This document shows, one piece after another, positions 15,447 through 44,748 of a stretch of 64,000 bases of DNA. The DNA lies in contig JAJIRX010000622.1 of NCBI GenBank assembly GCA_023853785.1, positions 248,001 through 312,000 of the forward strand, read 5' to 3'. Numbering within the stretch: position 1 is the stretch's first letter; every line of letters starts with the position of its first letter. The notes beneath the pieces are model-generated. The model was given only the letters and a program-made list of their open reading frames with translations. It did not search any database and was not told the origin of the DNA. The position numbers and the translations under genes are program-made. Source of the stretch: Psilocybe azurescens. Lineage: Eukaryota; Basidiomycota; Agaricomycetes; Agaricales; Agrocybaceae.

Positions 15447-15649
15447 TCCGGAACTCTTTGCGATGTATTATTATAGTTGCAAATCAAGATATACATCGTG
15501 CAGTGGCTGAAATCCATGGTTCACTTCCTTGACGAGTTTTCACGGGCATTTACAAACCATATATCATTGACCCCAATCACACAAGGGCGTATCCTAACTC
15601 CATCTTCCTGGAGCCAACTTCAGATGACAGCAGCTATCCATACATAAGC

Positions 15650-16315
15650 ATGGCTCATCCTGAATCATTGTTCAACCTGGTTGTCGACGATTACAGTCGC
15701 TCCATTTCACTTCCTCCGTTTCCGGACAGCATCAGGTTCCCAGCGAGGGCAGCATTCCTGGACTCCGCAATCGAAACCCGCCTCGATCCCAGTTGCGGGC
15801 TCGTAACACAGCGAGCCACAGATAAACTCAACATATGGATATCTTATATTCTTGTATACGCTCTTCGTAGCTGGCCCATTGTATTGCCAAATGGTGACCT
15901 GGACCCGGAAGCTGAAGCCTTCTCTGAAGCTTGAAACCCAGCCTCAAATTGACGCATACCTACGAGTGGCTCCAAATGCAAATAACAGATCGCATCATAT
16001 GAAGCTTCTTAGAGAAGTACTGAGAAGCATGGGGTATGTCTGTACGTGTTCGATATAGCTCGTGATGCTGAACAATCTCCAATGTGTTTCCTTAGACAAA
16101 CAGAGCTAGCGGATAGGCCATTACTTCGACTTCCTCCAAAAATGCAGATTTTCTGTCTATGTTTTCTTTCACTATCTAACTTGCATGACTAATACCGGTA
16201 AATACAGGATCGATCCAGAGGACAAGGCACTGGCTATCAAAGCGTTTCATCAATTACGGCTGGAGAAATCTACTAGTCCGTCAAGAGTCACTACACCTTC
16301 CTCGGGTCAAAGGTG
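15650..16315 (+). pseudogene. Repeat-borne gene of unknown function (unit 1 copy)
   Basis: MAHPESLFNLVVDD opens a frame reading RLDPSCGLVTQRATDKL and VLPNGDLDPEAEA. Relative to the copy at 1.7 kb, a few bases are missing after the last Glu-Ala, and the protein continues in another frame (LETQPQIDAYLRVAPN, MKLLREVLRSMG). A further exon gives IDPEDKALAIKAFHQLRLE and SPSRVTTPSSGQ. The empty target site of the large transposon lies at about 15,668. No domain recognised. Confidence 0.4.
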
Positions 16316-20187: not shown

Positions 20188-20372
20188 GATAGAAGAAGGT
20201 CCAGGTAACCTGAACCTTATGTTGGACCTTGACGGAGTGAAGTACGACCGTATCTGGTGGTCAGCGGGTGAAGGGGTGCTCTCATGCAAGGTCATCCGTT
20301 GACTTTGAGACGCAAAAACCATGTGATTTACTGATGTAGTATTTATATATAGATTCTGTACTACTTACCTAA

Positions 20373-20596
20373 TCCGGAACTCTTTGCGATGTATTATTAT
20401 AGTTGCAAATCAAGATATACATTGCGCAGTGGCTGAAATCCATGGTTCACTTCCTTGACGAGTTTTCACGGGTATTTACAAACCATATATTCGTTGACCC
20501 CAATCACACAAGGGCGTATCCTAACTCCATCTTCCTGGAGCCAACTTCAGATGACAGCAGCTATCCATACATAATCATGGCTCATCCTGAATCATT
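20373..20596 (+). repeat. Tandem duplication, unit 2, left part
   Basis: Repeats 15,447-15,670 almost exactly and is interrupted after ATCATT by the terminal repeat of the large transposon. The unit resumes at 40,053. Confidence 0.85.
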
Positions 20597-21355
20597 TAGG
20601 GTGTTTCACGATGGCGATTTTCAGTCACTTTTTAGCCGCTTTTGGCGGTGATTTTCTTCTCGCTTTTCTCAAAATCAGAATGAAAATCGGCTCAAAATCG
20701 AGGCCAACGTGAAACCCCAAGAATTTATTCAGAATTTATGGCATGTATCTACTAATATCTTAGCAAATGTGTTCAATTTCTCCCATTTGAGGGGTTTTAT
20801 TTTAACTTTTGTGGAGTTAGAGGTAGGTCTGCGTTTCTTTTCTCACTAAATATTTAACCATAGCCAAAGGAGGGATAAAGCCAAGGTTGTTGAGAGTGTA
20901 AGCCTGGCGCCCCAGTCTTACTACACACTGCTGGCACAGGGTTATTTATGTCAACGAAAAATGATTCAGAAAATTTATTAAACGTGTTTGCATTTTTGCC
21001 TGCTTTTACGATATATAAAATTCATTTCGAACTCAATATTTCTTAATACAGAAAATCTGCTAAAAAAGTTCCCTTTTAAAGCATTTGTTTGAGTTAAAAT
21101 TGAAGAGTTTGCGTAAGATTTATAAATTTCAAAACCATTTCAGGAAATATTTCCTTTGTGGAAGAAATTATGCAGATAAAAAACAAGATATTTTTGGGAG
21201 ACATGAATGTAACACAAACCAAGTGTTTTTGTTGTGTTTGTCGAGTTTTTAAATGAAAGATAACATTCAACATTGATATTATGTTTTAGGCAATATAAAA
21301 TAATTTCTAAAACTATACATTTTAGGCAGGATAAAATAAATCGCACGCTGAGGGA
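20597..21355 (+). repeat. Left long terminal inverted repeat
   Basis: Pairs with the reverse complement of 39,180-40,052. Shared blocks include the outer TAGGGTGTTTCACGATGG, an internal CACTGCTGGCA, AAAAATGATT, ATTAAACGTGTTTG and the inner edge AATAAATCGCACGCTGAGG (21,336-21,354). The transposase stop codon lies about 50 bases further in. Confidence 0.8.
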
Positions 21356-23170
21356 GTCACTGCAAGGTCCACATGAGTGAGTCGCTTGCCTACATTATCG
21401 GGTCAGTCTCCGGCAAGGGGGAGACTTACACGGGACAGGGATATCATGACCATTAAATCCTCTTCTTCCCATTGTAAAGGTAGGTAGGCAAAATGGGAAA
21501 GAATGTCATCCAGGCGAAACAACTCTAGCTCTCCAAGTTTCCGACTCCAAAGCTGTGCTTGAAGTAGAGGGAAAGAGACAAATGGATCAGCACACACATT
21601 GGCCAGCTTGTATTTCCGGGCAGCAACATAAGTTACAGTACACGGGTTGTCATTATCTTCAAAGTTGACTTGCGTGATATAATCAATACGTGCCAGCAAA
21701 TATTTGTTTGGAGAACCAGAATGGAGTAGTATAGACGAATTACCGAGATGCTTCCAGGATGTCGAATACGTTATGCCATTAATCGCAATATGCGACAAGA
21801 CAGTCGCATCCAACAGCTGATCAAAGGATTTGACAAAACACGCCTCAAGTGCTTCTGGAAGAGGTGTTGCTGAGTGCTTTTTCCGAGCCATAAAATCCTC
21901 CACCTGCTCTTCGTCATTGTGTCCTTGGTCTTGTGAGAGGCTGAGAATATCAGTCACGAGAGTACTTCGGACTTCTGGGTTGATGAGGCTTTTCAGCATG
22001 GGCTCGCAGTTACGGATGACCTCTGGAGTTCCAACTCTATGAAAGAGATTCCGTAGGTTACTTGCTCGCATAAATGAACATGAGATAGTTTCTTCATATT
22101 CGCCTAGAACTTGTCAGTACAGTCATAAAGAATTAAAATTCAAGACCTACTTGGCTTATAATTCGTCGAGATTCGTTGCAGCATGCCAATAACCCTTTCA
22201 AATGGAAAGGTCCACCATGAATGAACTGGACCATAGAATACAAGGTATTCATAGAGATGAATGGCCATGTGTTGATTCGGAACGAATTTGTACTCTGGGA
22301 ACAGTGCCTTCAAGCCATAAAGGTACGCAAGAATGTGGTTGAGGTAAGTTTCTGCATGCGCGGCTGAGGTGACACGAGAGGTGGCAGTGACAACTGCAGA
22401 AACAAGGTGGAGGGTGATTTCAAGGATGCGGCAGCACCTCTCAGAACGGTTGTCGGTTCCATCAGAATTGGACCAGAGGCGAGTCAAGGTAATAGGTAGG
22501 AGAGTCGTTCCAAGAACACGCCATTGGTCAGCCTTAAGCTTTCCATGACTGCTCAAACCAAGTTTGGCTGGCAGGGATGTCAGCCATGACGGTCGAACCA
22601 GGTGTTGAATGTCGGAATGTATTTCCGCGGCCTCCTCCCGTGTGAGAACGTGCCCGCACTGGGTGCCTGATGCCAAATGACCCTCTGGATCATAGTTGAC
22701 TTCAGTTTTATACATTCGCTGGAAATATAAAACATAAGAAAATGAGATGACAAGGAATGAAAGGAGACCTACCCAATAAAGAATGCCACGAGAATAATCT
22801 GCACGGTTTGGCTCCTTTGTCTTGCGTATATCGGTTGTAATCGGCTTACAGCCAAGCTCAATAGCTACCACCCTCAAAACTGAGAGGTGCTGTGAAGAGA
22901 ATTGCTTCTGCCACATCAACCTCCCTGCCTCTGTCCGAAGGTCCCGACACATAGGATGCTCCAACCAGCGGATAATCCGCCTCATTGATGCACATTCACC
23001 CTTACTCATCTGCTTCCATGCATCAGAGATTTTGGCATTGAAAACGGGTGGTTCCTTCTCGGCTTTAGGAACTCGTAGCCCTAGAATGGTATCAAAGTGT
23101 TTGCGGATGAGGCCAAGGAAAAGGTTGTGCATTGGCGTCTACAACAACAAAGCGCGATGGATCAAAATAG

Positions 23171-24391
23171 GAGGTCTTTACACTCCCCACAGGTACTGAT
23201 CGGAACCGGTCAGAATCCGGTTCGACCGGAATTTTATTTGGCAGTGTCCCTGCCAAATTAGCAGTAAATGTCCAAATTTTTCCGACCGGATTCTGACTGG
23301 ATTCCGATCGGAACCACCAGTACCGACCGGTTCCACTGTTAACAAGTCCGACCAAAATCCGATCGGAATCCGACTGGAATCCGACTGGAATCCAAGTGGA
23401 ATTCATCAAATTGGAAACCCAATTAGACCCAATTCCGAGTGGAATCTGAGTGGTACCAAGCGGAACTATATTATGTCAGCATACTATTTACAGCTCAGCA
23501 AGTAGTAACACAAAAAATATACATAGATCTCAACAGTTTGTGACAAATTTGGTATTGTTAGAATTGTAAAATTGAGGAGAATATGTTTATGTAATAGTTA
23601 TATAAAATTAAAAATTTCTAATAAAGAAATACCTATTTTTCATATAAATCTGTGCTTATATAATCTAAATGTCTTGAATAAAATTAATCTTTGTATTCCA
23701 TTAATTTATATTATTGTAAAACTATTAATATATAGCTAACAGAGTGCTATTTTGTTGCAAAATGTAGTTTACAATATCTATATATATTCAAATTTACAGT
23801 ATTTTGTATATTGAACATGCTGACATAATATTATGATGATGGTGTAATTACAGATGCATTGCCCTCAATTTTCTGATCATTTTGATATATAATATGTGGG
23901 TATAGCTTCAGAGGAAGTGCCAGAATATATTATTGGGTGTTGTAAAGAATGGTATATAATTCATAAAATGTTGAGAATACCACAAGCAATAATAGTGTAG
24001 TTGGTAATGTGTGTATAGAATTAATATATATGAAGCTGTTGGTTCAATTCCTGTTGAGTGCATTTTATAATTTTGCATTTATTACAAATATCATGTGACC
24101 TGAATGATTACTTAAGAGCTTATATAAGAAATATTATGTAATACTGACTAAGCAGACTATATCATGTGATTTCAATACATTATTTATAAGCTTATGTAAG
24201 CAATTATTATGTAATGCTGACTAAGCATTGTATTATACACTGAACAAGTACATTATGAGAAATTCCGACTGGATTCCGACCGGTTCCAAGTGGGTCTGAG
24301 TGGATTCCGATCAGATTCTGACCAGTTCCGATCGGTTCCGACTGGGTCTAAGTGGTTCCGACCGGTACCCATGGGGCACTGTAAAGTACTG
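23171..24391. mobile_element. Non-autonomous hAT-like element (1.22 kb) nested in the transposase
   Basis: It is flanked by an exact 8-base duplication CAAAATAG (23,163-23,170 and 24,392-24,399). The ends are imperfect inverted repeats (right end inward CAGTACTTTACAGTGCCCC, left end GAGGTCTTTACACTCCCC), continuing into GGTAC and GGTCGGAACC-like sequence. Both subterminal regions (about 23,191-23,470 and 24,250-24,375) are packed with variants of TTCCGACCGG/CCGGTCGGAA. The middle is very AT-rich and has no long open frame. The 8-base duplication and CAG-type ends fit hAT elements; transposase must come from elsewhere. Confidence 0.8.
23986..24058 (+). other. tRNA-like sequence with Pol III A- and B-box matches
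   Basis: TAGTGTAGTTGG (23,993-24,004) fits the A box with one change, and GGTTCAATTCC (24,041-24,051) fits the B box with one change, at roughly normal tRNA spacing. Acceptor-stem pairing is only about five of seven and the T-stem pairs poorly. It would be a decayed tRNA or SINE-type promoter inside the AT-rich core of the hAT-like element. No functional tRNA is claimed. Confidence 0.3.
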
Positions 24392-26419
24392 CAAAATAGG
24401 AAGTCGAAGGAGCTGCGACCAGCGAATGCCGGTGCTAGCGACAATTCCATCAGCTGTAGGATTTGAACCAGCCCTTCCGAATTGTTTGGCTGTTTGTCGA
24501 CAGCTTTCGTTAGTTCTCCGATGCCAAGAGGCATAATCGAGATGCCCATATCCGTGCGTTTTGAGGTCACACTCGCAAATTGAACAGAAATGAGTATGGG
24601 CACTGACGCAAAGCCTGCTGTTTTCCGGGCAGCAGGCAAGTCACAGACAATACACACTATGGCGCATCGCACCAATCGCCCATCCGGATGACCGTCAGTT
24701 CGGCTGAAGCGGACACCAGGATTCCAGAACTTGAGGAAGTCGTCAACTAAGGGTTTGAGGAAGTGATTGATCGCAGACAAAGGAGGTTCGTTTGGCCCAG
24801 GAATCACACCAGCAAGAAACATGTTCTCAGGCTTATAGCGAATATCAGGGGGTAGATTAAGGCAAACGAGGGTGACAAGACCAATTGAGACTTTCTTTCC
24901 TGCTTGTTTGTTGCCCAGCGGGTTGAAGAAATCGATCGATAGAGAGAAGACATAGCGTCCCTCACCATTCCCTACACTGAAATGAGTACCATCTGGTCCT
25001 TTGAATTTGCGGAGAACATCGCCGTCAAAGATGTCGCGCGATTGTGCGGGCAACTCCTGGCGGGGTCTTAGACCTATCCCACGATTTGTCCATATCTGCT
25101 TCAACTCCAGGGCGTGAAAGAAGTCGTCCAAGCCAAGTGATGGGGTTGAAGTAGACGAAAGGTTTTATCGGCGTGTAGATTGTACGCTTCTCAACCACTC
25201 GAGGACGTAGGAGCTGTTCATTGCACCGTCTGCCCATATGACGCGCTTTGCAGCAGGATGGGTATATAGCGACGGGAGACCCATCTTTGTACTTCGCGGC
25301 GTATGTGGCTTGACATTTGTCATTGGGGCAGACTGCATAAATGACGGTGTCAGCCTCCAGGTCGAGAGAGTTCTTAAATGACCGACAATCGGATGGAAAG
25401 TCGGATAGCACCTTTTGGTCAGCGTGCAGACAAATCGGCATTGGTTCGCATGAACGATAGTTGTACTAGGTATTGCAACATTTCCATCAGGGCAGATGTG
25501 CCACTTCGACTGACGCTGAAAAGTGTCTGGAATATGATGGCTATGAAAATAGATAACTGAAGGATGGGATCGACACAAGCAAGCAGCGGATTGAAGAAGC
25601 GGTCTATATGTTCGATATTAAATTCAGAATGTCATGTATGTGATTGTGATCTGTCTTACCTGTAGAAAATTTGATACCAGGAGTTTCTGCATCCTGCCGT
25701 GAATTCGATGTTTTCCTGTTCCTGACCCAGGATAGCTTTGCCTCCTCCAACTTTTCCGCAATATCGTCCACTTTGCCTGAGACTTGACGTTTCATGGCAG
25801 TGACGGGCACCGCCGTGTACACAACTTTGCTGAGATCGGTCTGGATGCGGATACACTCAGCATGGTGGTGCCTCAGTGGAAATGCATTTGTAAGTGGAAT
25901 TGTGTGTAGTTTCTCGAGTTCGACAGCTACGTTGGCAGCAAGAATATCCACAGCAGATTTGATCTCAGCAAGACGAGAAAGGAGGTTGCGAATAATTTGT
26001 TGACGGGAAGATTGTGGCTTGGAAGACGACGACACCGAGGAATTTTCGTCATTGTCGCCTGGTTGCGACCAGAGTCGATCACCTGGAGCCGACGATGGAG
26101 CAGGGATGGAATCGGAGACGGCCAGGGAGGCGAAATGTTGCCCGACTTTCTCGATTTCATCGTCAAGAACTTGCTTCGAATCTTCAGCAAGTTTGTTGGC
26201 AAAACGCCCGATCCTTGGCGGAGATGGTTGTTGTAGGTGCGAATGTCCAGCTCTACTCCACCTTCAACAAGCCCGCATTGGCTAGTGGAGCATGTGCACG
26301 TTCGAGTGGGCATTTCCTGTAGTTATATCGTCAATCAGAAAACATCTAACAGTCTGAGAGTGATCGAGTGACTGACGAGAAACCGAGTCAGCTAGAAAGC
26401 GCGTTTATGGAACAAGAAC

Positions 26420-27120
26420 GTGTTCTGGGCACCCAGAACACAGGGGACGGGGAGAAAGACGGGAAGGGTGTTCGTGTTCTGTGGTCTCTTAAAGTAAGCA
26501 TCGCGTCGACTTAGAGAACAATAACGCACTCACCATGGTGACCTTGTCGCACTCATTCACTCAACAAGTAGGCACAAAAGAAAACCTGGACACCCAGGTT
26601 TCCATTAGAGCGTTGCAAAGGCAACACAGAGTACAACGCTGTTCTGGGCACCCAGAACAACATTGAGTAAGAGTGGGTTAGAGAGAGCGGATTAGAGCAG
26701 GTTTCGATAAGCGTGTCTGTTTGGCTTGAAGCCCCGTAACCAAACAATCATGCAATCAGTCACATTTGTTTGGCTTCAAACCTATAGCCAAACAATCACA
26801 CACGCTCTCACGATGACACACGCTCTTATCGTCTCTAACGTCCACAATCCTTTCGAGTGTCCTGGGTGTCCAGGACACTATCAACATCTCTTCAACTTGA
26901 GAACAATCTTCCTCAGAGTGTCCTGGGTGTCCAGGACATGCTACTTCAGACGATCTTAGCCTGATTCGTATTGTTGACATTTTGGTGGTCCACGCTCTTC
27001 GATCGATTGCTAGTTATGCACTAGGTATGCACTCTTTCCCCAGCCTATTGTCACCACCTAACTGTCTCTCTTCTGCTCAAACTCAGGCCTACTCAGAGTG
27101 TTCTGGGTGCCCAGGACACT
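26420..27120. repeat. Left cluster of covarying palindromes (six copies)
   Basis: Copies of a 20-24-base dyad with core CTGGGYRYCCAG lie at 26,420-26,441, 26,581-26,600 (AAACCTGG/CCAGGTTT arms), 26,640-26,659, 26,856-26,879, 26,919-26,938 and 27,097-27,120. Arms differ between copies but remain self-complementary within each copy. A second dyad, TGTTTGGCT with AGCCAAACA or a near match, lies at 26,718-26,746 and 26,766-26,793. The cluster begins about 105 bases upstream of the transposase ATG. Confidence 0.85.
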
Positions 27121-27302
27121 CTGCCTTAGTCCACTGTCTCTGGCGTTTACTTTTTGTTGTCGCTATCATGGTCGATCAACGATTCAAATATTCTCTAGGT
27201 ATATACAATTTTCTTTGCCTATTGTCGCTATCTAATTGTCCATCATGATTGCTGGTAGAACTATAGCGGGTTTTGGCTGGAGGTCAATTTTAGTACTCTT
27301 GC

Positions 27303-30300
27303 TCAGGCCAGCGTACCAAGTTGCGTCGTAGAAGTTCTCTGGCAATCCTGGAATTGCCCTCGAGCGGCTAATGATCCCCCCATCCTTACACGCTGCCTAG
27401 CCGGGTTCTCTGGCACAGGGTTGCCCAGCCCAGTCCTCTTGTTCATATCACGGTCAATGATTGTCAGGTATGGAATCAATGCAGCGCTGCGCCACTGTCG
27501 GATCCTGATTGTGAATTTACGTTCTTCAGGTCCACTCTCGTCAGAAGACATGCCCTCCGTGGTCAGCATGTGTGCTACTTGGTACAGAAACTCCCAAGCA
27601 GGATCCGCCTCCTCCCTTTCGATTGTCGTTGGCGGTTTCGGGAGTCAGTTACTCGACAACTAGAATTGCATAAGTCTCCCAAAATGTAGAAAATCGAAAA
27701 ACAAACCCACCCCACGGCGTTGTGTGTCCCGGGCGCGACCTCGCCTTCTTACTTTTTTGATTTTCTCCACCCGTTCACGAAGTCTGCACTTCATCTTCTC
27801 CCTCTTTCGGCTTCGTCCTTTTACAAACGCCCTTGAGGATCGTGAAACATTGTTTAACAGCGGCATAAGCGACTGGCTGGTCTTCAGATTGAAGGCTATG
27901 CTTCAACAAGAAGGACTGCATGAACTGGTTGACCAACTCCTCGTTCCATGGATGATTGTGTTTGACTTCAAGCAGAAATTCAGCGGAGCTAGGCTTGGAC
28001 AGCTGACCGGATTTTCGTCAATTCGCGAATTTTTCGACAACATTCAGGAGAGGCGGTTTGACGCCTAGGATCTGGTCATCCTTCTTGATTCCAATAAGTG
28101 AATTCATGTGGAGCCGAACTGCTTTCTAGATAGATACGCATGGTGGGTTAGCCCACATTAAGATTTGAATGTGCTATGAACTTACCCCGATTATCTTAGA
28201 TGGACTGTTAGAGGCTTTCGTAGCCGGTTGTTTCACCAGTGCTGAAGCGTGTTTCTGTCTTCTGGCTGGTGTCCGTGGTGCACTTGGCAATGCACCTGTG
28301 GTCGCCAAGACCGAAAGAACTGTTTTTGTAATTTCCTTGACTTGCGCGAACGTCAACATTGCCGCGAATAATTTGTTGTCCAGGACTGTTGGAGGTAGAC
28401 AGTGTTGCAGGCTCATTGTCACCATAGACAGCTTTCAGCCGGGGCCTGCCCCACCCCGTGGACGTTTGAATTTATATGGTGGTGGGACACAATGAGGAAG
28501 CCCTTCATCGTCCTTTCAATGCGTCAGCATGACTATAAAATTAGGAACAGGATGGCTCACCTCGTTGTCATCGTCATCAGATACGACATGGTCGAACTCT
28601 TCCCCCGAAGCTTTCATCAGCAACAGGAGCACGAGCCTTGCCCTTGTCTTTGGAAGGGCTTTGTGGGTTTTCACCCATCATTGCGTCGTTGTCTCCTTGC
28701 CGACCCTCTCCGGGCGCTAGATGTGACTGTCCACTACTGGAGGCAGTATGCATGTCGAACATTGGAGTGGGAGTAAGTGTAACTTGCGGTGCCGCTGTGG
28801 TAAACATGACCTGTGATACCTGTTAGAAATAGACAATAATGCACAAATCAGTAGCTATACTGATGAGTCTAGAGTCTCTCAAATGCGCTGACAGTATGAG
28901 TGAAAATAGTAAATTGCTTCTGTAGACTCCAAATCTTGCTCTAGTGTCTTTGTTTCCTCAGACATAGTAGGAATACTGGTCTTTTACATGGCTAAGTGTC
29001 TAAAAATGGCGTGACTATAGGTGTCCTGGACCTATAATTACGTGACAAATTATATATCACCGGAACCGTCTCAATGAGGATTCCGGATCAGTGATCAGGA
29101 ATTTGTAACTTTAGTTATTGCAGTGTGCGCGTCTACTGTGCATTTGTACAAGTCCAAATATCAAGTGTGAACATGATACTACCGTGGTCGCGCTCTATTG
29201 GAGCAGGAGGCTGACCTTGTGGATGATTGTCCATATCTACATCGCCTCCTTCCTGATGACTATGGCTGGATACCTGAGGAAGTTGCCCGCTGGTTGACGG
29301 GATAACACCCTCCGTAGTAGGAGTGGGGAATGGTAATCCTAGATTGGTCAACGTAAGTTTGTGTTTTAAATATTTCGGAATATGAAGTCTTAAATACCTG
29401 ATGGTGCATTTACAGTAGTGCGTGCATGTTCTTCAAGCTGTCTCCGTTCCCTTTCCAATACACACAGCTTCTCATGATATTTGCGATTTCGCTTCTCCTC
29501 CGAACTCCTGCCGTTCCAGACATTCCCTCTCGAACTGTGCTTCTGTTGCTTTCAACCTATCGGCACTGTCCTGGTTTACCTGACGTTCGTGAAATCGCTT
29601 CTCTTCTATCTTTCTGTATTCTTTGCATTCTTTTTCGAGCTGCGCTTCTGTCGCTTCCAACTTAGCAGCATGCTCTTTGTTTGACTGCTCCAAGGCCAAT
29701 AACCGCTCCAAGACTTCGTTGAAGTTGTCCTGGTGTTTGTCCATCTATTATTATATGGTAAGTCTGATATACTCATCAGGCAGCAGTTTGATTACTCACT
29801 TTCTCCTTCATCCAGCAAATTTCTTTGTCCTTCAGGTCCAGCATCTGCCTTGTGGTAAAATCACTTTGCTCGATGACCCGTGTTTTGATCTATTATGAGG
29901 TGAGCCTTGTTAATCTAACAGCAGGAATGGTTAACTTACACATTCTGTGTCTTTTTCCGTGTTTTGTAAATAAACCCCAGGTTCATCATTGCGCCGCTTG
30001 ACCAACGTGTCCGCTGAACCTTCCTGCCCAGGCCCTTTCCGCCTTCCAATCGATATTTGATGCTTAGTTGGTGTCGGTTTTAATGTGAATGCGAACGGCT
30101 TCAACGTGAACGGCTTCGGTACCAGCGACTGAGTCGATGGCTGAGGTATGTGTTCATATGTTGGCTCGATGTTTCTGTGAGGATCATTGGCAAATTGCTG
30201 TTGAGGAAGCCGGCGGGTGTATGTTGGAGGTTTGCAAAACGGCTTTGTTGCCTAGGAGAGGATCTACTTGACCTCACGTTTTCGTCAAGGTTCATATCAT

Positions 30301-30786
30301 TTGGATATGAGATGTGTTGTTGCTCGCTCCGTGGGGTGATGGGCAGTTCTTGATCCGGCATAGACTGGTTTGGGTTGGTGGCTGTATTGACGGCCATGGC
30401 AGTTATGCCTGGGATAGCCTGGCTTGTTCCGGTACTGGAGGGTTCTATTGTTACTGGATTCACGGCAGGGAGAATGGTACCTTGAGCAGGCTCTAAAGGA
30501 TGGCTGGTCACGGGTATAAGTTTGGAGCGTTGTTGCAGGGCACCAGGCCGATTCTGCAGATCAGTTAGCTCAAAATAACAACTTTACAGTTAATAAATAA
30601 AATATGCACTGCGTCAAAGTTATCCATTGAAACGTCTGCATTGGGTTGAGGTTGGGGTTGAGGTTGTGTATTGAAGTTGAATAGGCTGAACATGTCAGAG
30701 TTGCTGGTGGCGGTTGGCGACTCTAGGTCAATGAATTTATTGAAAGTTGTTCGGCCATTGTGGCCGGGAGTGAATGTGATGCCCAT
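27303..30786 (-). CDS. Transposon-borne coiled-coil / low-complexity protein (model approximate)
   Basis: I read this as one multi-exon gene. Start MGITFTPGHNGRTTF (30,786), then a QPQPQPQPN stretch; SHPLEPAQGT and PSTQSLVPKPFTLKPF (proline-rich); IEQSDFTTRQMLDLKDKEI; a long charged coiled coil at 29,744-29,410 (VLERLLALEQSNKEHAAKLE and EKLCVLERERRQLEEHA); acidic and Pro/Ser-rich linkers; KAVRLHMNSLIGIKKDD; and an end block GMSSDESGPEERKFTIRIRQ, WRSAALIPYLTIID. That last block resembles the C-terminus of multicopy agaricomycete hypothetical proteins (recollection, not searched). Two or more one-base frame changes are needed (near 29,500 and 28,610). It could be two genes. The coiled coil suggests self-assembly; an accessory role in transposition is speculative. 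Confidence 0.5.
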
Positions 30787-31365
30787 GCGGGTATTTACTT
30801 ATTGGTGATTAGTCCGCTTCAAAATGCACAGGTGCCATTACTGAACTCCACTTCGCTCCATTTACTGAATTGTCTGACCCCACTAGCTCAAGTACTATGG
30901 CAACTGTATTGTTGAGCAGCTCATAAAGAGTCCAATACATGAACCTCGAAATGCTGCATCTACAATAGCTAAGTTCTGGTAGTATCTATCCTCTGTACTC
31001 AATGCTTGGAGTTTTGCTAATTGTTAAGTTCGATATGGCTTAGATGCTTAGACACGTTGAAATTATTGGAGTAAACTCATCATCGGTATGAACTGAATTC
31101 AATTGAGTGGCTGATGGTGGTGGGGTGCTAATTACGCCAGTAGGGTGCTCAGCACATCTACAATAGCTAATTAACTCCATTCACCAGTAGTATTCTCCAA
31201 TTCTTATTTGAACAGGGGCCTCTACTATGGCAACTTTATTGTTGAGTGGCTTGGAATAAATTTATTTCACTTGAATACCGGCTCACAACCAATCCAATAC
31301 TTTTAAGAGATCGAAAACTCAAAGCTCCAATAACACTACTCCCTCCAATAGTAATCTGTGCTGCC
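30787..31365. other. Divergent intergenic region inside the transposon
   Basis: Shared upstream region of the minus-strand coiled-coil gene and the plus-strand small gene. The phrase CTACTATGGCAACT (variant AGTACTATGGCAACTG) followed by TTATTGTTGAG recurs at about 30,892 and 31,222, and CATCTACAATAGCTAA recurs at about 30,957 and 31,156, pointing to an internal duplication of roughly 200-330 bases spacing. Confidence 0.45.
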
Positions 31366-31944
31366 ATGCCACATAAGAAGCCTATCCACAAGTCTCCGAA
31401 AGTGAGTACGACGATGGAGTGTCATACAGTCATACTTACAGTTATTAGGCAAAACATTATGCCTATACTGGTCGCCTTTTCCGTCACGACGTCGCGAAAG
31501 CCATTTTTTCTCTCCCTTTATTGCTTGGGATGATAATAGGACTACATTACTTCAACAAACACATCAGATTTTCAAAGATCAAGTCGCAAATGCCAAGATT
31601 TACAACTTTGCTGTTACTCTCTTGGAAGGTAGCCAATCCCATCCCTTTCAGATATCGTGCAAGAAGCAGTTGATTGGACTGAAGAAGAACGAAGCACTCA
31701 GAAAGTTGGGGTGCAGTGGAGAGGAGACCTCTATGTCCTGCTCATCGGAGAGCGTAATCCTCTATATCCTGTTGATATGAGAGGTAAGGATGCAAAACGA
31801 GTTGCATATGTGGTTAAAAAGTAAGTACCAGCATAATACTACATTTTTGAAGACTTACCATGTCTATGGTCCAGGTTTCTTGCAGAAGTCGAGCAAGATT
31901 TGATTGGAGATGCACCGACAATGTTCCATTTTCGCAGATGGTGA
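31366..31944 (+). CDS. Small transposon-borne protein of unknown function
   Basis: A short first exon MPHKKPIHKSPK (ATG 31,366) ends at a GTGAGT donor. The best later coding stretch reads AVDWTEEERSTQKVGVQWRG, DLYVLLIGERNPLYPVDMRG and, after an intron, FLAEVEQDLIGDAPTMFHF, stopping at 31,942-31,944. Middle exons are uncertain. No known domain is recognised. It lies between the coiled-coil gene and the WD40 gene. Confidence 0.4.
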
Positions 31945-32054
31945 CCAGTAGGATGTTCTAAGAGGCCCTGGTGGTCACGTAGTAGCTTTCTTTAAGTTAT
32001 ATCAATGCAATCACCAAGTTTCAATGCAAAGAGATGATAATTCCAATAAGAACA

Positions 32055-32135
32055 CATATTACAATACTGTTCTGGGCACCCAGAACAACATTGAGTGAGA
32101 GCGGGTTAGAGAGAGCGGGTTAAAGCGGGTTGATT
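32055..32135 (+). repeat. Isolated palindrome copy with flanking repeat shared with 26.63 kb
   Basis: TGTTCTGGGCACCCAGAACA (32,069-32,088) is identical to the dyad at 26,640. The flanking text ACATTGAGTRAGAG and GGTTAGAGAGAGCGG is shared too, so about 80 bases were copied between the two sites. Confidence 0.8.
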
Positions 32136-32220
32136 AGACAATGTTGACCAAGTTAGGTCACTTGATCAAAGCATTGCCATGCAAGCACAACACACACAGA
32201 ATCTCTTGATATATACCCCC

Positions 32221-32262
32221 TTTATTTCTCTTTGTTGTCGACAATACAACAAAGAGAAATAA
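32221..32262. other. Perfect 17-bp hairpin with 7-base loop
   Basis: TTATTTCTCTTTGTTGT pairs exactly with ACAACAAAGAGAAATAA across the loop CGACAAT. It lies downstream of the small gene (plus) and of the WD40 gene (minus), so it could be a shared 3' structure or a transposon footprint. Confidence 0.7.
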
Positions 32263-32404
32263 GGAGTACAGTTCAGTACCAGAAGGCATTGTAGAATCAG
32301 ATGGAGTTAGATAGTATTCAAATCAGCGACCTCAAAAAAAAATTTTAATTCAAATAATTAATATTCAAAGTGTATCCAAACTATTCAAAGTGTATTCAAG
32401 CTAT

Positions 32405-34226
32405 TCAAAGTGTATCCAAACTATTCCAACGATTCCACTCTGCTTGATCATTCCACAACTCTTCATCATCATCATCATCCTGGACAATCATACCAACATG
32501 AACCCGCATATCATTTGGATCCCAGGTTGAATATCTGGCATTGCTGGTATGAACTTGTGGTTCAAAACCCCGGTTTATCGTGGCATTCATAGTGCTTAAG
32601 GCACTTTGAGCCATCTTATCCCATAAATTAGCAAGAATAATGGAGTAATTTTGTGCATACAAACCTTTAGTGAATATGGTAACCAGATTCCTGAAGACCA
32701 ATACGCAATGATAAAAATGATAAAGAAATTCAGGACCATAATGATTGCTTGATGGTATACGTTATTTTGGGCCTGTTTTCTGGAATGCATGGACTATTGA
32801 ATGTAAGCATAGTTCTTGACAATAAGGAGTGAGCTTACTGGTTTTTCCCATATCACAATATCAGAGCATTCAAGGGAAGCGCCACTGGCTATAAGATGAC
32901 AATCTTTGGTGGATGTTGTCTAATACAAGTCAATACCAGGCTTTTGGATAAAACATTTGCACTCACGCATATGGTCTGTATTTCTGTATTTTTACCAGCT
33001 TGCTTTAATATCTGTTTCGGTTCAGGAGAGGACAAAGAAAATGTGTATATTTTGCCATGATCACTTCCACAGACCACAACTGACGATCCTTCAGCAAAAA
33101 CACCATCTTTGATGCATCGTTTCTTTGTGAATATGGGAAAGCTATGTGAAGGTGATGAGCGTGGTAAATGGTATAGATCAAACCCTTTTGCAAGATTCTC
33201 TATGAGAAGTAATTGCCCATCCAGGCTAATGTCAGCGTGGCCACTTCATAAGAGGTCAGCATTGACATATGATATCAAAAGATCATGCTCACACTCCAGA
33301 CTTCAAGACCTTCCGCCAGTCCTCCCTCCCAGACTCGACATTTCGACAAATCCTGCCAAAGTTGAAAGAATAATAAATATGAATGTCTCATTAATTAAAG
33401 TATCGTCTTACATTTCCCCAGTTTCTAGAACAAAATTAAAAGCTTACGCCCGAGTCATAAAAGTGGACAGAGCTAGCTATGTAGGTATTTCCGTCGCTCT
33501 CCACATTGAAGGTCCAGAGCTGTAACATTGTCCCTATATCATCATAAGTCGCTGCCGCATTGTCTACAGAAAAAGATCTCACCATTTCTTCCGACTTCGT
33601 ACAAGGTAACATTGCCATGGTGACTACTGATAGCCAAACGTGATGTTTGAATATCGTAGTCTACTGCTTCAACAGGATCGCTAGGAGCAAATACCCGTGT
33701 AGTGGCAATCTCAACCATCGCAGTCTTTGTTTCCGAGTTGGTATATTTTCCCAAGTGTAGAGGCTAAATGCTTACATTCGTACGGTTCTGGCAGAAGATG
33801 ATAAGAAAGCCATGCCCAGTTCCGAAAGCTAGGTGTTGCAAATCTTCCTTGACTTTACCCCTAGCCAGACCAAACATGTAATCTGGCCCCATCGTTGACC
33901 AGGGTCCTCAAGGACTTCTTTGCATTTTCTAGTCGAAACATCCCAAATACGAACTGTTTCATCATCACCTATAAATTTTGCATTAGCATGTATGCAATAA
34001 CACGATACAACACGAGGGCATCTTACCACCGCTAGCTAGCAGCGCCTCCATCATGACTGAATGATAAGCAGTTTATAGGCCCTTTAAGACCCGAAAACCG
34101 TGCATATTTGGTATAAACCTGCGTACTTGGTTAAATAACATTAGAAGAGAAGAGATTTTTACTCACATTGTTACGTGGGGCCTTCAAAAAGTGCTTGAAG
34201 CCTTTGAGCAAAAGAGTGATAAGCAT
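32405..34226 (-). CDS. WD40-repeat protein with C-terminal membrane helix, transposon-borne
   Basis: The likely start is 34,226 (MLITLLLKGFKHFLKAPRN), then YARFSGLKGPINCLSFSHDG and, after a one-base frame change near 34,045, LLASGGDDETVRIWDVSTRK, a canonical WD40 blade ending in W-D. Further blades: RWGQITCLVWLG, LAFGTGHGFLIIF, VEAVDYDIQTSRLAISSHHG with NVTLYEVGRNG, LQLWTFNVESDG, LLLIENLAKGFDLYHLPR and VVVCGSDHGKIYTFSLSSPE. A hydrophobic segment VLNFFIIFIIAYWSSGIW (about 32,740-32,690) is a predicted membrane helix. The end is acidic (QDDDDDEELWNDQAEW). WD40 propellers bind proteins; a partner is unknown. Multicopy relatives in agaricomycetes are recalled but not searched. Splicing is approximate. 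Confidence 0.65.
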
Positions 34227-34517
34227 GAGTAGTACTGGTAATGAGAGCGATGGCGACTAACTTTGGCCAATGGGCAGCATACTTATGCAAGGAGCACCTA
34301 TTGTGAATGTAACGCTAATTGTCTTGATGTCCATGACGACAATGTTGAGCAGACTGCTCCACCCCGCTTGACCTGCTTGGATACCTACCCCATTTGGGAA
34401 CGATATACGGAGTCACTATAGGCGAAAGAACAATAGCGAATATATGCTTACGAGGCTGTTTGAAAAATACAAAGTAGCGAGGGTAGAACAAAGTAATGAG
34501 TATGCCTAGGAATATAA

Positions 34518-35303
34518 ATGAGATGGATCAAGCAATACACAACTCAAACCACATACCATGGATGCGCACATCACACGACACAAGCCGCTTCATCACTTGC
34601 AGGATCGTCTTCTCGCCCCAGGACATTTCCTCACCTGCTGAAGATCGCACGAAGAATGGAGTTTTCCTCCCTTATCGTCAAGCCAGGGAAGCGATCGGCC
34701 ACAAGAGAGAGCTCTACAATCCCAGATATTGTATACTTATCGGCACAGAGACAATCTAAAACTCCGGAAACCATTCAGCACAGCACAACGCAGAGAAGGG
34801 CTCCTACACCTAAGCGTGTTGCATTTAACGAGGATATGAACGTTGACTCCTCCCGATTCTCAGTCTGGAGATGAGGAAGATGAAGAAGACGAACTTGAAT
34901 CTGGGAGCAAACTTGTTAAATTAATCCCCAAGCCTAAGGGCGAGGCTGGGTGTCCTGGGTCAGGGGGCTATAATTTGCAAGAAGAGCTGGCCTGGAGTGA
35001 AAGAACTTATGAAGCGGTGGTAGTGAGTGCTTATTTTGATCATATGCCTGTAACTTACCGATGAATTCCGCAAGGATTTGGTACACGACCAAGCCAAGAA
35101 AAAGCACCTGGATCTATCGAAAAGCTATAGTAAACAGAACAAAAACTTATTAAGGAAATCTGCGACGAAGTTAAAAGGAGTACCGGGTCTTAGACGAGTA
35201 TAATAAACACTGGCCCATGCATGACATGCTGAAGCTCCATCTTAAGTACACCTCAGAGGCAGCCCGCCCGGCAAGGACTGCAAAGAAAATGAAAAGGGTG
35301 AGT
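34518..35303 (+). CDS. Agaricomycete transposon-associated protein of the IPKP/GRGGYNL type
   Basis: The N-terminal part (from 34,518) is basic and Ser/Thr-rich and ends RRAPTPKRVAFNEDMN. After a one-base shift near 34,850 it continues TPPDSQSGDEEDEEDELESG, LVKLIPKPKGEAGCPGSGGY and NLQEELAWSE. After an intron it reads KKHLDLSKSYSKQNKNLLKE and LDEYNKHWPMHDMLKLHLKY, then TSEAARPARTAKK. The blocks LIPKPxGE, GxGGYNL and a C-terminal LKYTSExAR are ones I associate with abundant agaricomycete hypothetical proteins. Function unknown; no catalytic motif. The acidic run suggests a nuclear, chromatin- or DNA-contacting protein (inference). Confidence 0.55.
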
Positions 35304-35559
35304 TCAAATGCAACACCATTGTATCGTCACTAACTTTCAAGAATGTTCAAGGTGGCTTCAGCGTTCAAAGAGTAGTGAAGCTTGGGCGTACATAGCTATC
35401 AAATACATTTTCCTTGAGAAGTGTCTATGCACGTTTATAGTTGATATATGACAGTACATACCGTAAGCAAGAACCTGAGCACCTAGCATATGGGTGTATA
35501 GGGTACATCAAAAGGTGCAGCGATAAGCATGAGTGCTGGGTAGTCGAGCAGTGATGTCG

Positions 35560-36150
35560 CGCTCCGGACACCCACAGCACAACATCAGCATGGACAACCT
35601 CAGTGTGGTGTGGTCTGGACACCCAGAACACGATAAGCACAAGTGGATGGTCGAGCAGGTTGTGCTCTGGACACCCACAGCACAACCTCAGTATGGACAA
35701 CCTCAGTGTGGTGTGGTCTGGACACCCAGGACACACTGTGGCTAGAAGATGGGTTGTTGATCAAACGTTGATCGCACCGAAGTCGCACCCTATGTTTGGT
35801 TCTCCCTTTAAACCAAACACGCTCATCACGTTCGTCGATATTTGTGCTTGTGTGACAACGCTTTGATCAAGTGATCGTGTGATGCATTCTCGATTTCGTG
35901 CGCGTGCTTGTCCTTGTGTGGCAAAAGCTTTGATCAATCTCAAACGAACACGCTTAAACGAACTCATTCCTCTCAACTCTCACCTTCATTGTCAAATTGT
36001 CAAAGTGTGTTGTGGGTGTCCAGAACACGCTATTCCTCTCAACTCCCACCTTCATCGTCAAATTGTCAAAGTGTGTTTTGGGTGCCCAAAACACGCTATT
36101 CCTCCTGTTTGAACCTTGACTCTTGGCTGTTATTTGGGTGTCCAAATCAC
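35560..36150. repeat. Right cluster of covarying palindromes and tandem units
   Basis: Seven more copies of the dyad: about 35,561-35,580, 35,609-35,631, 35,661-35,681, 35,711-35,734, 36,007-36,030, 36,073-36,094 (GTGTTTTGGG/CCCAAAACAC arms) and 36,129-36,150 (ATTTGG/CCAAAT arms). Those at 35.6-35.73 kb sit in a local duplication of about 100 bases; those at 36.0-36.09 kb sit in a tandem pair of about 67 bases (CTCTCAACTC...CACCTTCAT). The second dyad type, TGTTTGGTT/AACCAAACA, occurs at about 35,790-35,818. The cluster ends about 345 bases upstream of the next plus-strand gene. Confidence 0.8.
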
Positions 36151-36159
36151 GGTTTAGCT

Positions 36160-36352
36160 TGCCCGCATTTCTTCTATCCCTCGGCTCGCAATACGGCCAG
36201 CTCTCGATTGAATCAGGCTACTAAACGGCCGCATTTCTTCTATCCCTCAGCTCGCGATACGGCCAACTCTCAATTGAATCAGGCTTCAAACGGCCGCACT
36301 TCTATCCCTCAGCTCACGGTACAGCCAGCTCTCGATTGAATCAGGCTTTGAA
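36160..36352 (+). repeat. Three tandem copies of a roughly 62-66-base unit
   Basis: Each unit reads GCATTTCTTCTATCCCTC or a shortened form, then AGCTCGC, ACGGCCAGCTCT and GATTGAATCAGGCT. Copies start near 36,161, 36,228 and 36,293. The third has lost a few bases near its start. Confidence 0.8.
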
Positions 36353-36494
36353 ACGGCATAACTTCAACTTCGTGAGTGTTTTTTTGAGACCTTCCATCAT
36401 ATGTCGAGTTCTTAGGCTGATCTTGAGTTTTAAAGACCAATGTCTCAACAATCCTCACGTTTGGACCATTCCGAGGGCAGGGCCTTCATCAGCG

Positions 36495-39022
36495 ATGGAG
36501 ATATTTATTATTCACCTAACTGCTCACGCCAGCGTTTCTGTCCCAGATCAGAAGAGATCGTATCCATTCAGCATTGGAGCCGCATCTCTCAACCGGCATC
36601 ACGATCCTGAATGGTGGACCGACACCTATGGATTTTTGAGCTTTATCCCCAATATTCTGACATTCGAAGGATATGCGTTTGGCCACCTTTGCGACTACCT
36701 TAACGACATTCATGAAGTTGACGCATCTTGGGGTACAGGGTACCAGCTCTCACAATCAAAATCCTCAGTGTGGCACTATCTGGAAGACGTTTTAATTGTT
36801 ATCATCCATCTCCTAAAGGAAAATTTCCGTCATCTGCTAAAACCATATTTCCTCCCCCCTTCGCCCCTCTCTCCTTGGCTTCGATCAAGTATTTTATACC
36901 GCTCGTGGCACACGCTATCGAATTGGACGCGCACGCGATTGGTTCATCATTTGGATCGGCTTGTTGTCGTTCTATATTGCCTGCATTGAAGGAGTACCCA
37001 ACCCCTGAAGGTCCCGGAGTGGTTCAACTTCCTTGCCTCGGAAAAAGTAGATCAGTCGTGGCTCAGCGGGCTGTATAATATCATAATGGGTGCGTTCTGG
37101 AAGCCGACCCGTCAGCGCCCGGAGCGTTTCGTCGATCTCAACAGCAAAGGCGGCCAAGGTGCTGACCTTGCGAAATGGCTTTGCGTTTGGGACGTACCTG
37201 TGTGGTATCGTTGGTCGAAAGTCGAGCGAGATCAGACATATCGCCCGCTTTCAGCTATCTTCAACCCCCATCGGAGCACCTTCAGAATGCGACGACCATG
37301 GTTTATAGGTCTCCGTCTCCACCTTCTCTGCCATCTCCACACCCTGTCGCCTTGGAGGAGCAACCGCTGTCCCCACCCAGTCTTTCTCAGCTCCAAATCT
37401 GCTATTCTTGAAGACTTGGAATTCAATAAGGCCCGAGACACGTATCTTGCCTCCAAGCCATGGGAATCTTTCTTCGCTGCCCGAAAGATCATCAACGATC
37501 GAAGACTTGCGAATGAGACGCCGAAGGAGAGGGAAGTGCGTCTGAATCGAGAAAGGAACCCTCCTACTGTTTCAGCAGAAGTTTTTGTTTGGGATTGGAG
37601 CGACGAAGATGACATGTGCCTTGTCCACACTAGGGTCTTAAAAAGCAAACGTGCCGACAGAATTGATGATCATCCGGGGTCTCAAGCTCGCTACGACTCT
37701 GTCCAAAATGAATGGGATCTTTGCGAGTACTTTGCGACTCCGGAAGAACTTGCTTATGAGGAGAACGACTTGGACTTTTACGGCGAGGGACGTTCCACCT
37801 GCTCCTCATTCTTACCGACGAGGACGAAGTCTCCGGATTCTCAGCAGAAAAAAGTCGAGGGAATTTGTTGCTCAACGTGTCCATGCGTATGTGGGTGTCG
37901 TCCCATTACCAGCGCCCCTGTCGAACGAGAGTGAAAACGGACTTGATCTTATTCCCTCCCAAGCGGTGGACATCGTCGCATACCTTTCGGCTCACTATGG
38001 CTATCGACCCCTCATTGCTGTTCCTCTAAATCCCTCTACCCCCGACAAGGCAAGGTGGAACGATTTCGTCAAGACTGTGGGGCTTTGTGCCGGGATTTTA
38101 ACCCTCCACCAGTCGACTTCGGCCTATCATGTTTTGAGTTTCTTCAGGGCCTCCAAACGGCCAATGGCCCACCGCCTGCCATCTATGATCTCAAAAGTCA
38201 ATGTCCCATTGCTCTTGATGTTATAGCTTTGAGGCTTCTCTTTGAGAAGGTTGGCAATCTTTTCGTTCTTCGGGAAGCCGCCTTGAACTGAAGACTCCCT
38301 GGACAATTGCTCTGAAAACTGCTACAGACGCAGTCAAGGTGTTCCGCCTTCTACTCAGTCCTCAAAAACATTCTTCAACTTCACTCGCACGCTGCCTCCT
38401 GGAAATGGGTGTGTCATTCCACACGTTAATCCCACTTCACGATCAACCTTCTGTTGGACTCCAGGCCAACCGAAATCTTGTGCCTATCCGTGCTCCAGGG
38501 TATATTTTCTCAAAAAGGACTACGACGTCTATATACAGCACCGCTGACGACTCCTGTCATCTTCGGCCGGGCGAGCTGCATTGCTTGCTGGTGGCCTCCT
38601 CAGCCGCCTTGTGAAGGAACATATTGGCATTGATTCTGCCTGCTTTGGCCCATCGCCTGCAGTCACTGAACATCACCTTGGCCACCACTTCACGGCCAAT
38701 GATGGGACGGTCTATTGGGATGATATGCTTACCGACGAGGAGATGGATGTCATCTGTGGACTTCATAAGTGCTACACAGGTTTTTCATTTTTATTCTAAT
38801 AATTTTATTAATTTTAACATGACCTTCTTCCCCAGGATGTGCCCCCAACCAACTAGTTCACAAGTCTTGGTGGCCGAAGCCTCTTTATTGGAATAATCAG
38901 AAAGCAAATGGCCTCAATTTTGGACACTGGACGGAATGGGATGAAGAATGGTATCAAGTCCGTTTGTCTGACATTGTAAAAGGTACTGCCCAACCTGAGG
39001 CCCCGGATTTCTGGGCGAAATA
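36495..39022 (+). pseudogene. Agaricomycete multicopy transposon-associated protein (ALLxGG type), heavily frameshifted
   Basis: From MEIFIIHLTAHASVSVPD (36,495) the reading gives DWFIIWIGLLSFYIACIEG, VPEWFNFLASEKVDQSWLSG and MGAFWKPTRQRPERF, VWDVPVWYRW, then WESFFAARKIINDRRLANET and RNPPTVSAEVFVWDWSDED. Later: YRRGRSLRILSRKKSREF, GYRPLIAVPLNPSTPDK, FNPPPVDFGLSCFEFLQGL, ARCLLEMGVSFHTLIPL, GRAALLAGGLLSRLVKEHIG, WDDMLTDEEMDVICGLHKCY and, after an intron, SWWPKPLYWNNQKANGLNFG and DEEWYQVRLSDIVKG. The stop is near 39,022. At least five frame changes are needed (about 36,930, 37,005, 37,785, 38,085, 38,285). The ordered blocks match a family I recall as very abundant in agaricomycete genomes; its function is unknown. 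It ends about 160 bases inside the right terminal repeat edge. Confidence 0.6.
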
Positions 39023-39179
39023 AGCTTAGAGGTGCAGCTTCCTGGCGAAAAGCAACTGCTCGTCTTAATGCGGACTCGAATGCTCTTTTCTTGGCGGCAT
39101 AATTGTTATATAGTCCCTTGTGGACAATCTCTTGTCAACCCGCTGCTGAGATGTACCCGCTTATCGCCACTGTCAACGA

Positions 39180-40052
39180 GGGCCTCAGCGTGCGATTTAT
39201 TATTTCCTTTTATAAATACTTCAATTTTGTACAATTGTCCGCTCTGGAAAACTTTTCCAGAAATAATTCATTTTTGATGTTTGATAAATCTTTTGTAAAA
39301 TTTAAGACATATTAAGAAATTTGTTGTTCCAAAACATTCTTCAATTGTTGCATGAGACAATAGTAAACAAACTGAGCGTGTCAGTCAAATCCATATACAG
39401 TCAAAATTATATATAAATGTAAAGTCTTTTTGCTGCTAAAATTAGGACATAAAAGTTACCTTTAACAGGCATTTATAGATGCCAACAAGAAAGACTTTTA
39501 GATACATTTTATGATCGGCAAAATGGTCGAAAAAAACACAAACACGTTTAATTAATTTTTTCAATCATTTTTAGTCGCCTTAAATAATCTGTTGCCAGCA
39601 GTGACAGCCCCTTTCCACATTATCTTATCTATTACATTTACATACACGTGACCGTGACCGTGATCCCCAACCCATTCCTTCGACGTCGACTTCTCTCTTA
39701 CACTTAGACATTATGCACCGTACCCACCTGTAGCCCAGTCAGTCGTTCTATCAATATATCGTGGTCCTGTCATTCTCCGCGTGACTCTCAGTGAGCCTGG
39801 TGACGCCAGGCTTTCAGAGAGGCAGCACAAGATAACGACATATTGGACAGAATTATCTAATACATGATGTTTGAAAAGCGAGTGAAAAGTAGGGGAAAAG
39901 CGAGGTGAAAGCAGGGTGAAAGCAGCTCTTGCATACTTGAAAAGCAAGGTCCGCTTTTCAAAATCCTGATTTTGATCTTCGAAAAGCGAGACAAAAATCA
40001 TCATCAAAAGCGGCTCAAAAGCGACTGAAAATCGCCATCGTGAAACACCCTA
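39180..40052 (-). repeat. Right long terminal inverted repeat
   Basis: Reverse complement of the left terminus. From the outside: TAGGGTGTTTCACGATGG, many AAAAGCG motifs, CACTGCTGGCA, AAAAATGATT, AAACGTGTTTG, and the inner edge CCTCAGCGTGCGATTTATT (39,183-39,201). It is about 110 bases longer than the left one because of small indels. Confidence 0.8.
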
Positions 40053-40699
40053 ATTTTAACCTGGTTGTGGGCGATTACAGTCGCTCCATTTCACTTCCTC
40101 CGTTTCCGGACAGCATCAGGTTCCCAGCGAGGGCAGTATTCCTGGACTCCGCAATCGAAACCCGCCTCGATCCCAGTTGCGGGCTCGTAACACAACGAGC
40201 CACAGATAAACTCAACATATGGATATCTTATATTCTTGTATACGCTCTTCGTAGCGTACCCATTGTATTGCCAAATGGCGACCTGGACCCGGAAGCTGAA
40301 GCCTTCTCTGAAGCCTGAAACCCAGCCTCAAATTGACGCATACCTACGAGTGGCTCCAAATGCAAATAACAGATCGCATCATATGAAGCCTCATAGAGAA
40401 GTACTGAGAAGCATGGGATATATCTGTACGTGCTTGATATAGCTCGTGATGGTGAACAATCTCCAATGTGTTTCCTTAGACGAACAGAGCTAGCGGATAG
40501 GCCATTACTTCGACTTCCTCCAAAAATGTAGATTTTCTATCTGTGTTTTCTTTCACTATCTAACTTGCATGACTAATACCGGTAAATACAGAATCGATCC
40601 AGAGGACAAGGCACGAGCTATCAAAGCGTTTCATCAATTACGTCTGGAGAAATCTATTAGTCCGTCAAGAGTCACCACACCTTCCTCGGGTCAAAGGTG
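40053..40699 (+). pseudogene. Repeat-borne gene (unit 2 copy), split by the transposon
   Basis: The first few codons lie at 20,577-20,596 on the far side of the element. The remainder reads RLDPSCGLVTQRATDKL and VLPNGDLDPEAEA, with the same small deletion after Glu-Ala as the unit 1 copy, so that lesion predates the duplication. Later segments (LETQ, MKPHREVLRSMG, DPEDKARAIKAFHQLRLE) follow as in unit 1. Confidence 0.4.
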
Positions 40700-44556: not shown

Positions 44557-44748
44557 AATCGAAGAAGGTCAAGGTAACCTGAGCCTTATGTTGGACTTGA
44601 CGAGTGAAGTACGACCGTATCTGGTGTTCAGCGAGTAAAGGGGTGCACTGGCTCATCCATTGGCCGTTGAGCTGTCAGCGGAGACTGAATCAGACCAAGT
44701 AATTTACTTATGTAATATTGGGTATAGATTTAGCACTACTTACCTAAT

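Follow-up and report, generated by a model that had tools for sequence, protein, structure and literature searches.

The 64,000-nucleotide stretch of Psilocybe azurescens DNA studied here (the window) corresponds to C529:248001-312000 of a 70.37-Mb, 937-contig genome, and DNA and protein searches were run against this same genome. Its central part holds a large mobile element of Tnp2 type with several genes, whose limits, copies and nature are described below (Table 1). Gene models were built with our own splice script and no gene predictor, and their ends are approximate. As a sequence-only reading of the window had proposed, there are six gene blocks (the models of two are weak), and the edge genes face outwards: a Tnp2 transposase gene on the left and a gene of an agaricomycete family on the right. 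Transposase_21 (PF02992) is detected at 24256-25164 (E 6.9e-14; 52 bits, cut-off 28.6), and a DUF4218-like stretch at 22143-23138 scores 26.7 bits, just under its cut-off of 27. The right-edge gene has 28 homologs, among them proteins of Gymnopilus junonius, Agaricus bisporus and Athelia; the best of these, P0001, is 832 aa long in a single uninterrupted frame. The protein database attaches a precomputed PF28437 label to 18 of the 28, and Pfam scans of P0001, P0004 and P0026 did not return that family. The ALLxGG-type protein, earlier listed as a protein of its own, is the C-terminal part of this gene, which carries the ALLxGG motif.

Between the two edge genes, the WD40 protein matches Pfam beta-propeller models at up to E 8.7e-7, all under their cut-offs. 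The small GGYNL gene is present as predicted, with a motif that reads GSGGYNL here and not GRGGYNL. Its homologs, found in Psilocybe cyanescens, in Schizophyllum commune and in further records, agree with those of the right-edge gene in placing the window among Agaricomycetes. Its relatives carry a GRPGSGGY stretch, which we take to resemble an AT-hook. Self-comparison shows degenerate tandem repeats at 35521-36365, between the GGYNL and right-edge genes. The GMSSDE model has no Pfam family over the cut-off and no protein-database match. Its first exon (28893-28965) falls in a 359-bp insert private to the window copy and was dropped from the gene; part of the 359-bp repeat encodes residues 1-26 of the model and has dozens of matches in the genome. 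The coiled-coil gene has no clearly diverged relatives among the matches listed from the same genome.

The limits of the element differ from those first proposed, which were two 30-base outer ends enclosing 19.46 kb. These ends, at 20597 and 40053, carry TAGGGTGTTTCACGATGG and are indeed identical and inverted, with 0 mismatches at both. The interval between them splits the second copy of a ~4.9-kb host unit (15671-20373 against 40055-44748, 92% identity; 15447-15669 against 20373-20596, 97%; both by self-comparison), and the first copy is intact at ~15669/15671, which confirms the empty site reported there. With up to 3 mismatches allowed, the 30-base terminus occurs at 14 places genome-wide, and six places outside the window form three inverted pairs spaced 496, 479 and 479 bp (C713:408586-409081, C122:16863-17341 and C477:1639489-1639967). 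Because the same ends bound 479-496-bp elements at these three places, they are the termini of a gene-free ~500-bp miniature inverted-repeat transposable element (MITE), which we call MITE-1, and not of the large element. The arms of MITE-1 form a ~100-bp inverted pair (20596-20690 and 39951-40053, 83% identity in the self-comparison), so that the 0.8 kb of inverted similarity first described as one stretch is two separate pairs, this one and a 72-bp pair at the true ends. The target duplication of MITE-1 may be TA, which stands on both sides of the three short copies, or ATT, which fits the empty ~4.9-kb unit of the window. Moreover, a DNA search with the left end breaks between query positions 300 and ~329, inside the supposed element, and in other copies the gene block extends no farther than 20926 and 39603. 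The 19.46-kb element, which the matched ends and the empty site had made attractive, therefore deserves almost no credence, particularly as every step of the nesting has its own empty site.

A second MITE of ~242 bp, MITE-2, is nested inside MITE-1, and the MITE-1 copy on C713 reads unbroken GTTGTTGAGAGGCAGC, the empty site for this insertion. The large element interrupts MITE-2 at ACA, and an unbroken MITE-2 copy elsewhere (L075) reads CTTACTACAGCCCC. A solo long terminal repeat was also considered for the 242-bp repeat and rejected, since it has the inverted ends of a MITE. The large element lies inside MITE-2, MITE-2 inside MITE-1, and MITE-1 inside the ~4.9-kb unit.

Genome searches with each end place the true limits of the large element, as DNA similarity to other copies begins at ~20926 and stops at 39603. 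In the gene models the two edge genes end short of the repeats at these positions, by ~0.3 kb on the left (21322) and ~0.5 kb on the right (39023), and not within ~160 bases of the terminal repeats as had been described. Of the end loci examined, the window among them, 18 of 21 on the left and 14 of 20 on the right have the terminus CACTGCTGGC. Their flanks mostly differ; a few pairs (L033/L034, L037/L039 and L063/L064) share theirs and may be alleles or duplications. Two copies could be read at both ends, and in each of them the 3-bp target duplications match: ACA for the window copy, TTT for the one on C528. The C528 copy is complete from end to end at 17,025 bp, and the two private inserts of the window copy together account for most of its excess length. 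One of them, the 1.22-kb repeat at 23171-24391, occurs at ~30 other places in the genome at 91-96% identity. These data bear on a different origin, in which a host gene cluster was hit by a Tnp2 transposon and then amplified by segmental duplication. The pairs with common flanks would fit it, and part of the copy number is thus duplication or allelic; against it, most flanks differ, the ends are fixed at CACTG, both testable copies have 3-bp duplications and MITE-2 has an empty site without the block, and we consider this origin very unlikely.

Table 1. Features of the element and of the MITEs that enclose it (window coordinates)
Feature	Position	Strand	Remarks
Probable CACTA/EnSpm-type (Tnp2) multi-gene transposon	20926..39603	.	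18,678 bp; ACA target duplication on both sides
Left terminal inverted repeat	20926..20997	+	Begins CACTGCTGGCACAG; 72 bp, 82% against 39532-39603 inverted, E 1e-12 (self-comparison)
Right terminal inverted repeat	39532..39603	-	Begins CACTGCTGGCAACAG on the minus strand; self-comparison and end loci
Tnp2 transposase gene, several exons	21322..26313	-	Split by the insert 23171-24391; model ends uncertain
1.22-kb repeat insert in Tnp2 gene	23171..24391	.	Absent from other listed copies; CAAAATAGGA on both sides
GMSSDE gene (spliced model)	27303..28794	-	Own-genome relatives
359-bp repeat insert	28821..29179	.	Missing from other copies mapped over this site, in which 28820 is followed directly by 29180
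Coiled-coil gene (weak model, low complexity)	29472..30786	-	Splice model; family copies
WD40-repeat protein, hydrophobic C-terminal stretch (weak model)	32405..34031	-	Splice model
GGYNL gene	34656..35297 (approximate)	+	Head-to-head with WD40 gene; frame disrupted here relative to relatives
Right-edge gene, ~830-aa family	36440..39023 (approximate)	+	ALLxGG motif; frame disrupted in window copy
MITE-1 left part	20597..20896	+	Terminus search, short copies elsewhere, left-end DNA search, empty-site comparison
MITE-1 right part	39817..40053	+	Terminus search, short copies elsewhere, right-end DNA search, empty-site comparison
MITE-2 left part	20897..20925	+	Ends TGTAAGCCTGGCG / TGAAAGCCTGGCG; GAGAG duplicated at the sides
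MITE-2 right part	39604..39816	+	Many copies elsewhere, 89-98% identity

Copies of the gene block fall into two subfamilies. Eight other copies align with the window across 24392-28820 at 96-97% identity, and four others (C581, C528, C92 and C170) align across 29180-38300 at 97-98%. In a second subfamily, at 89-94% identity, the middle block lies on the strand opposite to the neighboring end block; this arrangement is seen in nine contigs (C465, C472, C790, C489, C186:92-101 kb, C527, C201, C440 and C202), and on C465 the right-edge gene is separated from the inverted block by relatives of GMSSDE. The second subfamily keeps the same genes, and with two internal orders overall the gene order is not fixed. 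The same set thus recurs between the same termini once these are corrected, as the sequence-only reading had expected; the same order, which it had also expected, is not kept in the second subfamily. Together, the comparisons support the view that the gene set moves as one multi-gene unit with the corrected termini.

Beyond this DNA-defined family, diverged versions of the gene set occur beside other Tnp2 genes. Loci outside the family were selected manually, and each was counted once; family copies, matches to the GMSSDE residue 1-26 repeat and C715:77112 (the last from the linkage count only) were left out. Protein-relative listings for the accessory genes are incomplete, and locus counts are rough and hold among the matches listed. 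Relatives outside the family are mostly 25-56% identical to the window proteins, with a 39-residue WD40 stretch at 72%. Six loci (C19, C248, C669, C515, C465:160-190 kb and C497) have Tnp2, WD40, GGYNL and right-edge genes within ~8-37 kb; C385 has all four as well, and C714:76-88 kb lacks only GGYNL. On C19 and C669 the order is Tnp2(-) WD40(-) GGYNL(+) right-edge(+), and C248, together with C515 and C465:160-190 kb when reversed, reads Tnp2, WD40, GGYNL, GMSSDE, right-edge, with order and strands matching. C497:7915-16369 and C385:10853-18920 represent a compact second arrangement of ~8 kb, in which the orientation of Tnp2 is reversed and, relative to the right-edge gene, the GGYNL/WD40 pair is flipped. 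On C715, C670 and C153 the WD40 gene lies ~5 kb or less from the contig start, and no Tnp2 gene was detected there.

WD40 and GGYNL genes are head-to-head in 13 of 13 pairs, 0.9-2.5 kb apart (14 WD40 and 21 GGYNL loci). Proximity to Tnp2 was counted as a distance of at most 30 kb from one of 65 PF02992 places, for which chance predicts ~5.5% per locus. The diverged loci found this close are 9 of 17 for the right-edge gene, 9 of 14 for WD40, 10 of 21 for GGYNL and 5 of 6 for GMSSDE; counted by hand, 29 of the 65 PF02992 places are accompanied by one or more partner genes. These sets, along with the colinear and inverted copies, bear out the earlier proposal of a single Tnp2-type transposon with several genes, and transport on such elements largely explains why this genome has many copies of the genes, as it had also suggested.

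Signs of selection were sought as the ratio of nonsynonymous to synonymous substitution rates (dN/dS) in 20 copies for Tnp2 and in 17 copies for the right-edge gene, with the frame of the latter set by its homologs; every single comparison shares the window copy. Between the window and seven subfamily-B copies, the Tnp2 3' exons give dN/dS 0.20-0.35 at dS 0.08-0.11. For the right-edge gene, the ratio is 0.33-0.59 against the 11 copies in which dS reaches 0.067 or more, and 0.42-1.20 against the six closest. As judged from these ratios, the comparisons show purifying selection on both genes between the subfamilies, a pattern that we read as constraint while the element was spreading and decay afterwards.

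The CACTGCTGGC ends, the 72-bp inverted repeat, the 3-bp target duplication and the Tnp2/Transposase_21 gene place the element among CACTA/EnSpm transposons, whose transposase domain, CAC(T)-type inverted ends and duplication length it shares. A tyrosine-recombinase captain gene at one edge is the hallmark of Starship elements; the edge genes here are Tnp2 and the PF28437-type gene, and Pfam searches with 10 reading frames and five gene models listed no recombinase. The element ends in CACTG..CAGTG and not in the 5'-TGT..ACA-3' or 5'-CATCA..TGATG-3' termini given for Plavaka elements in PMC12730594. Overall, 20926-39603 very probably represents an autonomous-type CACTA/EnSpm transposon, here in a decayed copy, with the gene set itself as its unit: Tnp2, the right-edge PF28437-type gene, WD40 and the small GGYNL gene head-to-head, and GMSSDE, joined in the family of the window element by the coiled-coil gene.

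Several results weigh against this interpretation. The window copy is itself decayed: an insert interrupts its Tnp2 gene, and its GGYNL and right-edge genes have disrupted frames. No PF02992 match lies within 30 kb of 11 of the 21 diverged GGYNL loci and eight of the 17 diverged right-edge loci, some of which are near contig starts while others are unexplained. Conversely, by hand count among the matches listed, no partner gene was detected near 36 of the 65 PF02992 places. The diverged loci are not all independent, as C385 and C650 score identically and look like mutual copies, so that binomial P values for the proximity counts serve as description only, and the diverged sets are known here from protein matches and gene order, not from termini. 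Among the selection data, the Tnp2 3' exons give dN/dS 0.72-2.70 against nine close subfamily-A copies, with few changes, and 0.55-0.94 against four partial copies. For the right-edge gene, the pooled ratio of 0.50 in frame contrasts modestly with 0.89 and 0.65 in the wrong frames, and for one short copy, L067, a wrong frame gives the lower ratio. Finally, subterminal TNPA-like repeats were looked for as exact words in the outermost 400 and 600 bp, and no 9-12-mer was repeated there above the level of shuffles.

The Tnp2 places without partners and the disrupted frames, together with accessory proteins that have no known biochemical role, are also what one would expect if an ordinary Tnp2 transposon had taken up host genes as passengers with no part in its movement. 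Such passengers would hardly be found again as the same set, itself diverged, beside diverged Tnp2 genes, nor would the set be expected to survive internal inversions or its right-edge gene to be under the purifying selection indicated between subfamilies. We therefore regard passenger cargo as unlikely, while giving it more weight than the other alternatives.

In keeping with Tnp2 biology, the transposase would cut at the CACTG ends and paste the element into a 3-bp staggered cut. With less certainty, the other proteins may be partners in mobility or persistence. GGYNL is a candidate for binding element DNA in a TNPA-like way, in view of the GRPGSGGY stretch of its relatives, and the WD40 protein could be an adaptor to host chromatin, a candidate role suggested by its fold class alone. 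A broader proposition is that an agaricomycete CACTA clade has an obligate protein set (Tnp2, WD40, GGYNL, GMSSDE and the PF28437-type protein) that forms a multi-protein transposition or anti-silencing complex, with members that stayed linked while they diverged to ~30-50% identity and their internal order was inverted more than once; we regard the case for and against it as evenly balanced. In maize En/Spm, TNPA and TNPD provide an instance of a Tnp2-type transposase that acts with a non-transposase partner. Compared with that system, the element described here has more partner genes, and no subterminal repeat array was found in the exact-word search.

Outside the element, the ~4.9-kb host units (15447-20372 and 40054-44748) have a third partial match at 55692-57517, and their translated frames contain LPAELLTEILKLLAWKDVLQVRGVR, which we take to be an F-box-like stretch. 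Self-comparison also reveals a 4-kb inverted repeat (4500-8511 and 48196-52182), with arms 93% identical and ~40 kb apart.

Among described systems, the closest in kind are fungal EnSpm/CACTA elements, which according to PMC12730594 have 5'-CAC..GTG-3' termini, 3-bp target duplications and an EnSpm-type transposase, and some of which carry a TET/JBP dioxygenase gene. The element in the window is alike in type of termini, length of duplication, transposase and possession of extra genes; it differs in its partners, which are WD40, GGYNL, PF28437-type and GMSSDE and not TET/JBP. "WD40" does not occur in the main text of that article, and no dioxygenase family is among the Pfam matches at E<=1 for the window frames and models. 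Fungal CACTA elements of the TRC group share Transposase_21, and similar sequences are present in Coprinopsis and Phanerochaete genomes; the portion of that article covered describes no multi-gene set of fungi (PMC1636069). Because enlarged En/Spm families of 16-20 kb with 4-5 open reading frames instead of 1-2 are reported from the red alga Chondrus crispus (PMC6431247, citing Kojima et al. 2013), a multi-gene CACTA element has precedent. The two are alike in large size and multiple reading frames, belong to different lineages and are likened here by description only. No description of the present gene set was found in open PMC papers, as judged from titles and the opening words of abstracts, a search that leaves Repbase and most subscription journals outside.

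The locus is a cautionary case, as it shows that long identical termini can be those of a small element invaded by a large one. Several unannotated multicopy gene families of mushrooms are tied by these results to one mobile element, and annotation would mask such families as transposon genes and not count them as lineage-specific host expansions. The set also offers a defined group of genes for asking directly whether a transposase and one DNA-binding helper are enough for a eukaryotic CACTA transposon. If the obligate-set proposition is true, several large families of mushroom "hypothetical proteins" would be explained as parts of a transposon.

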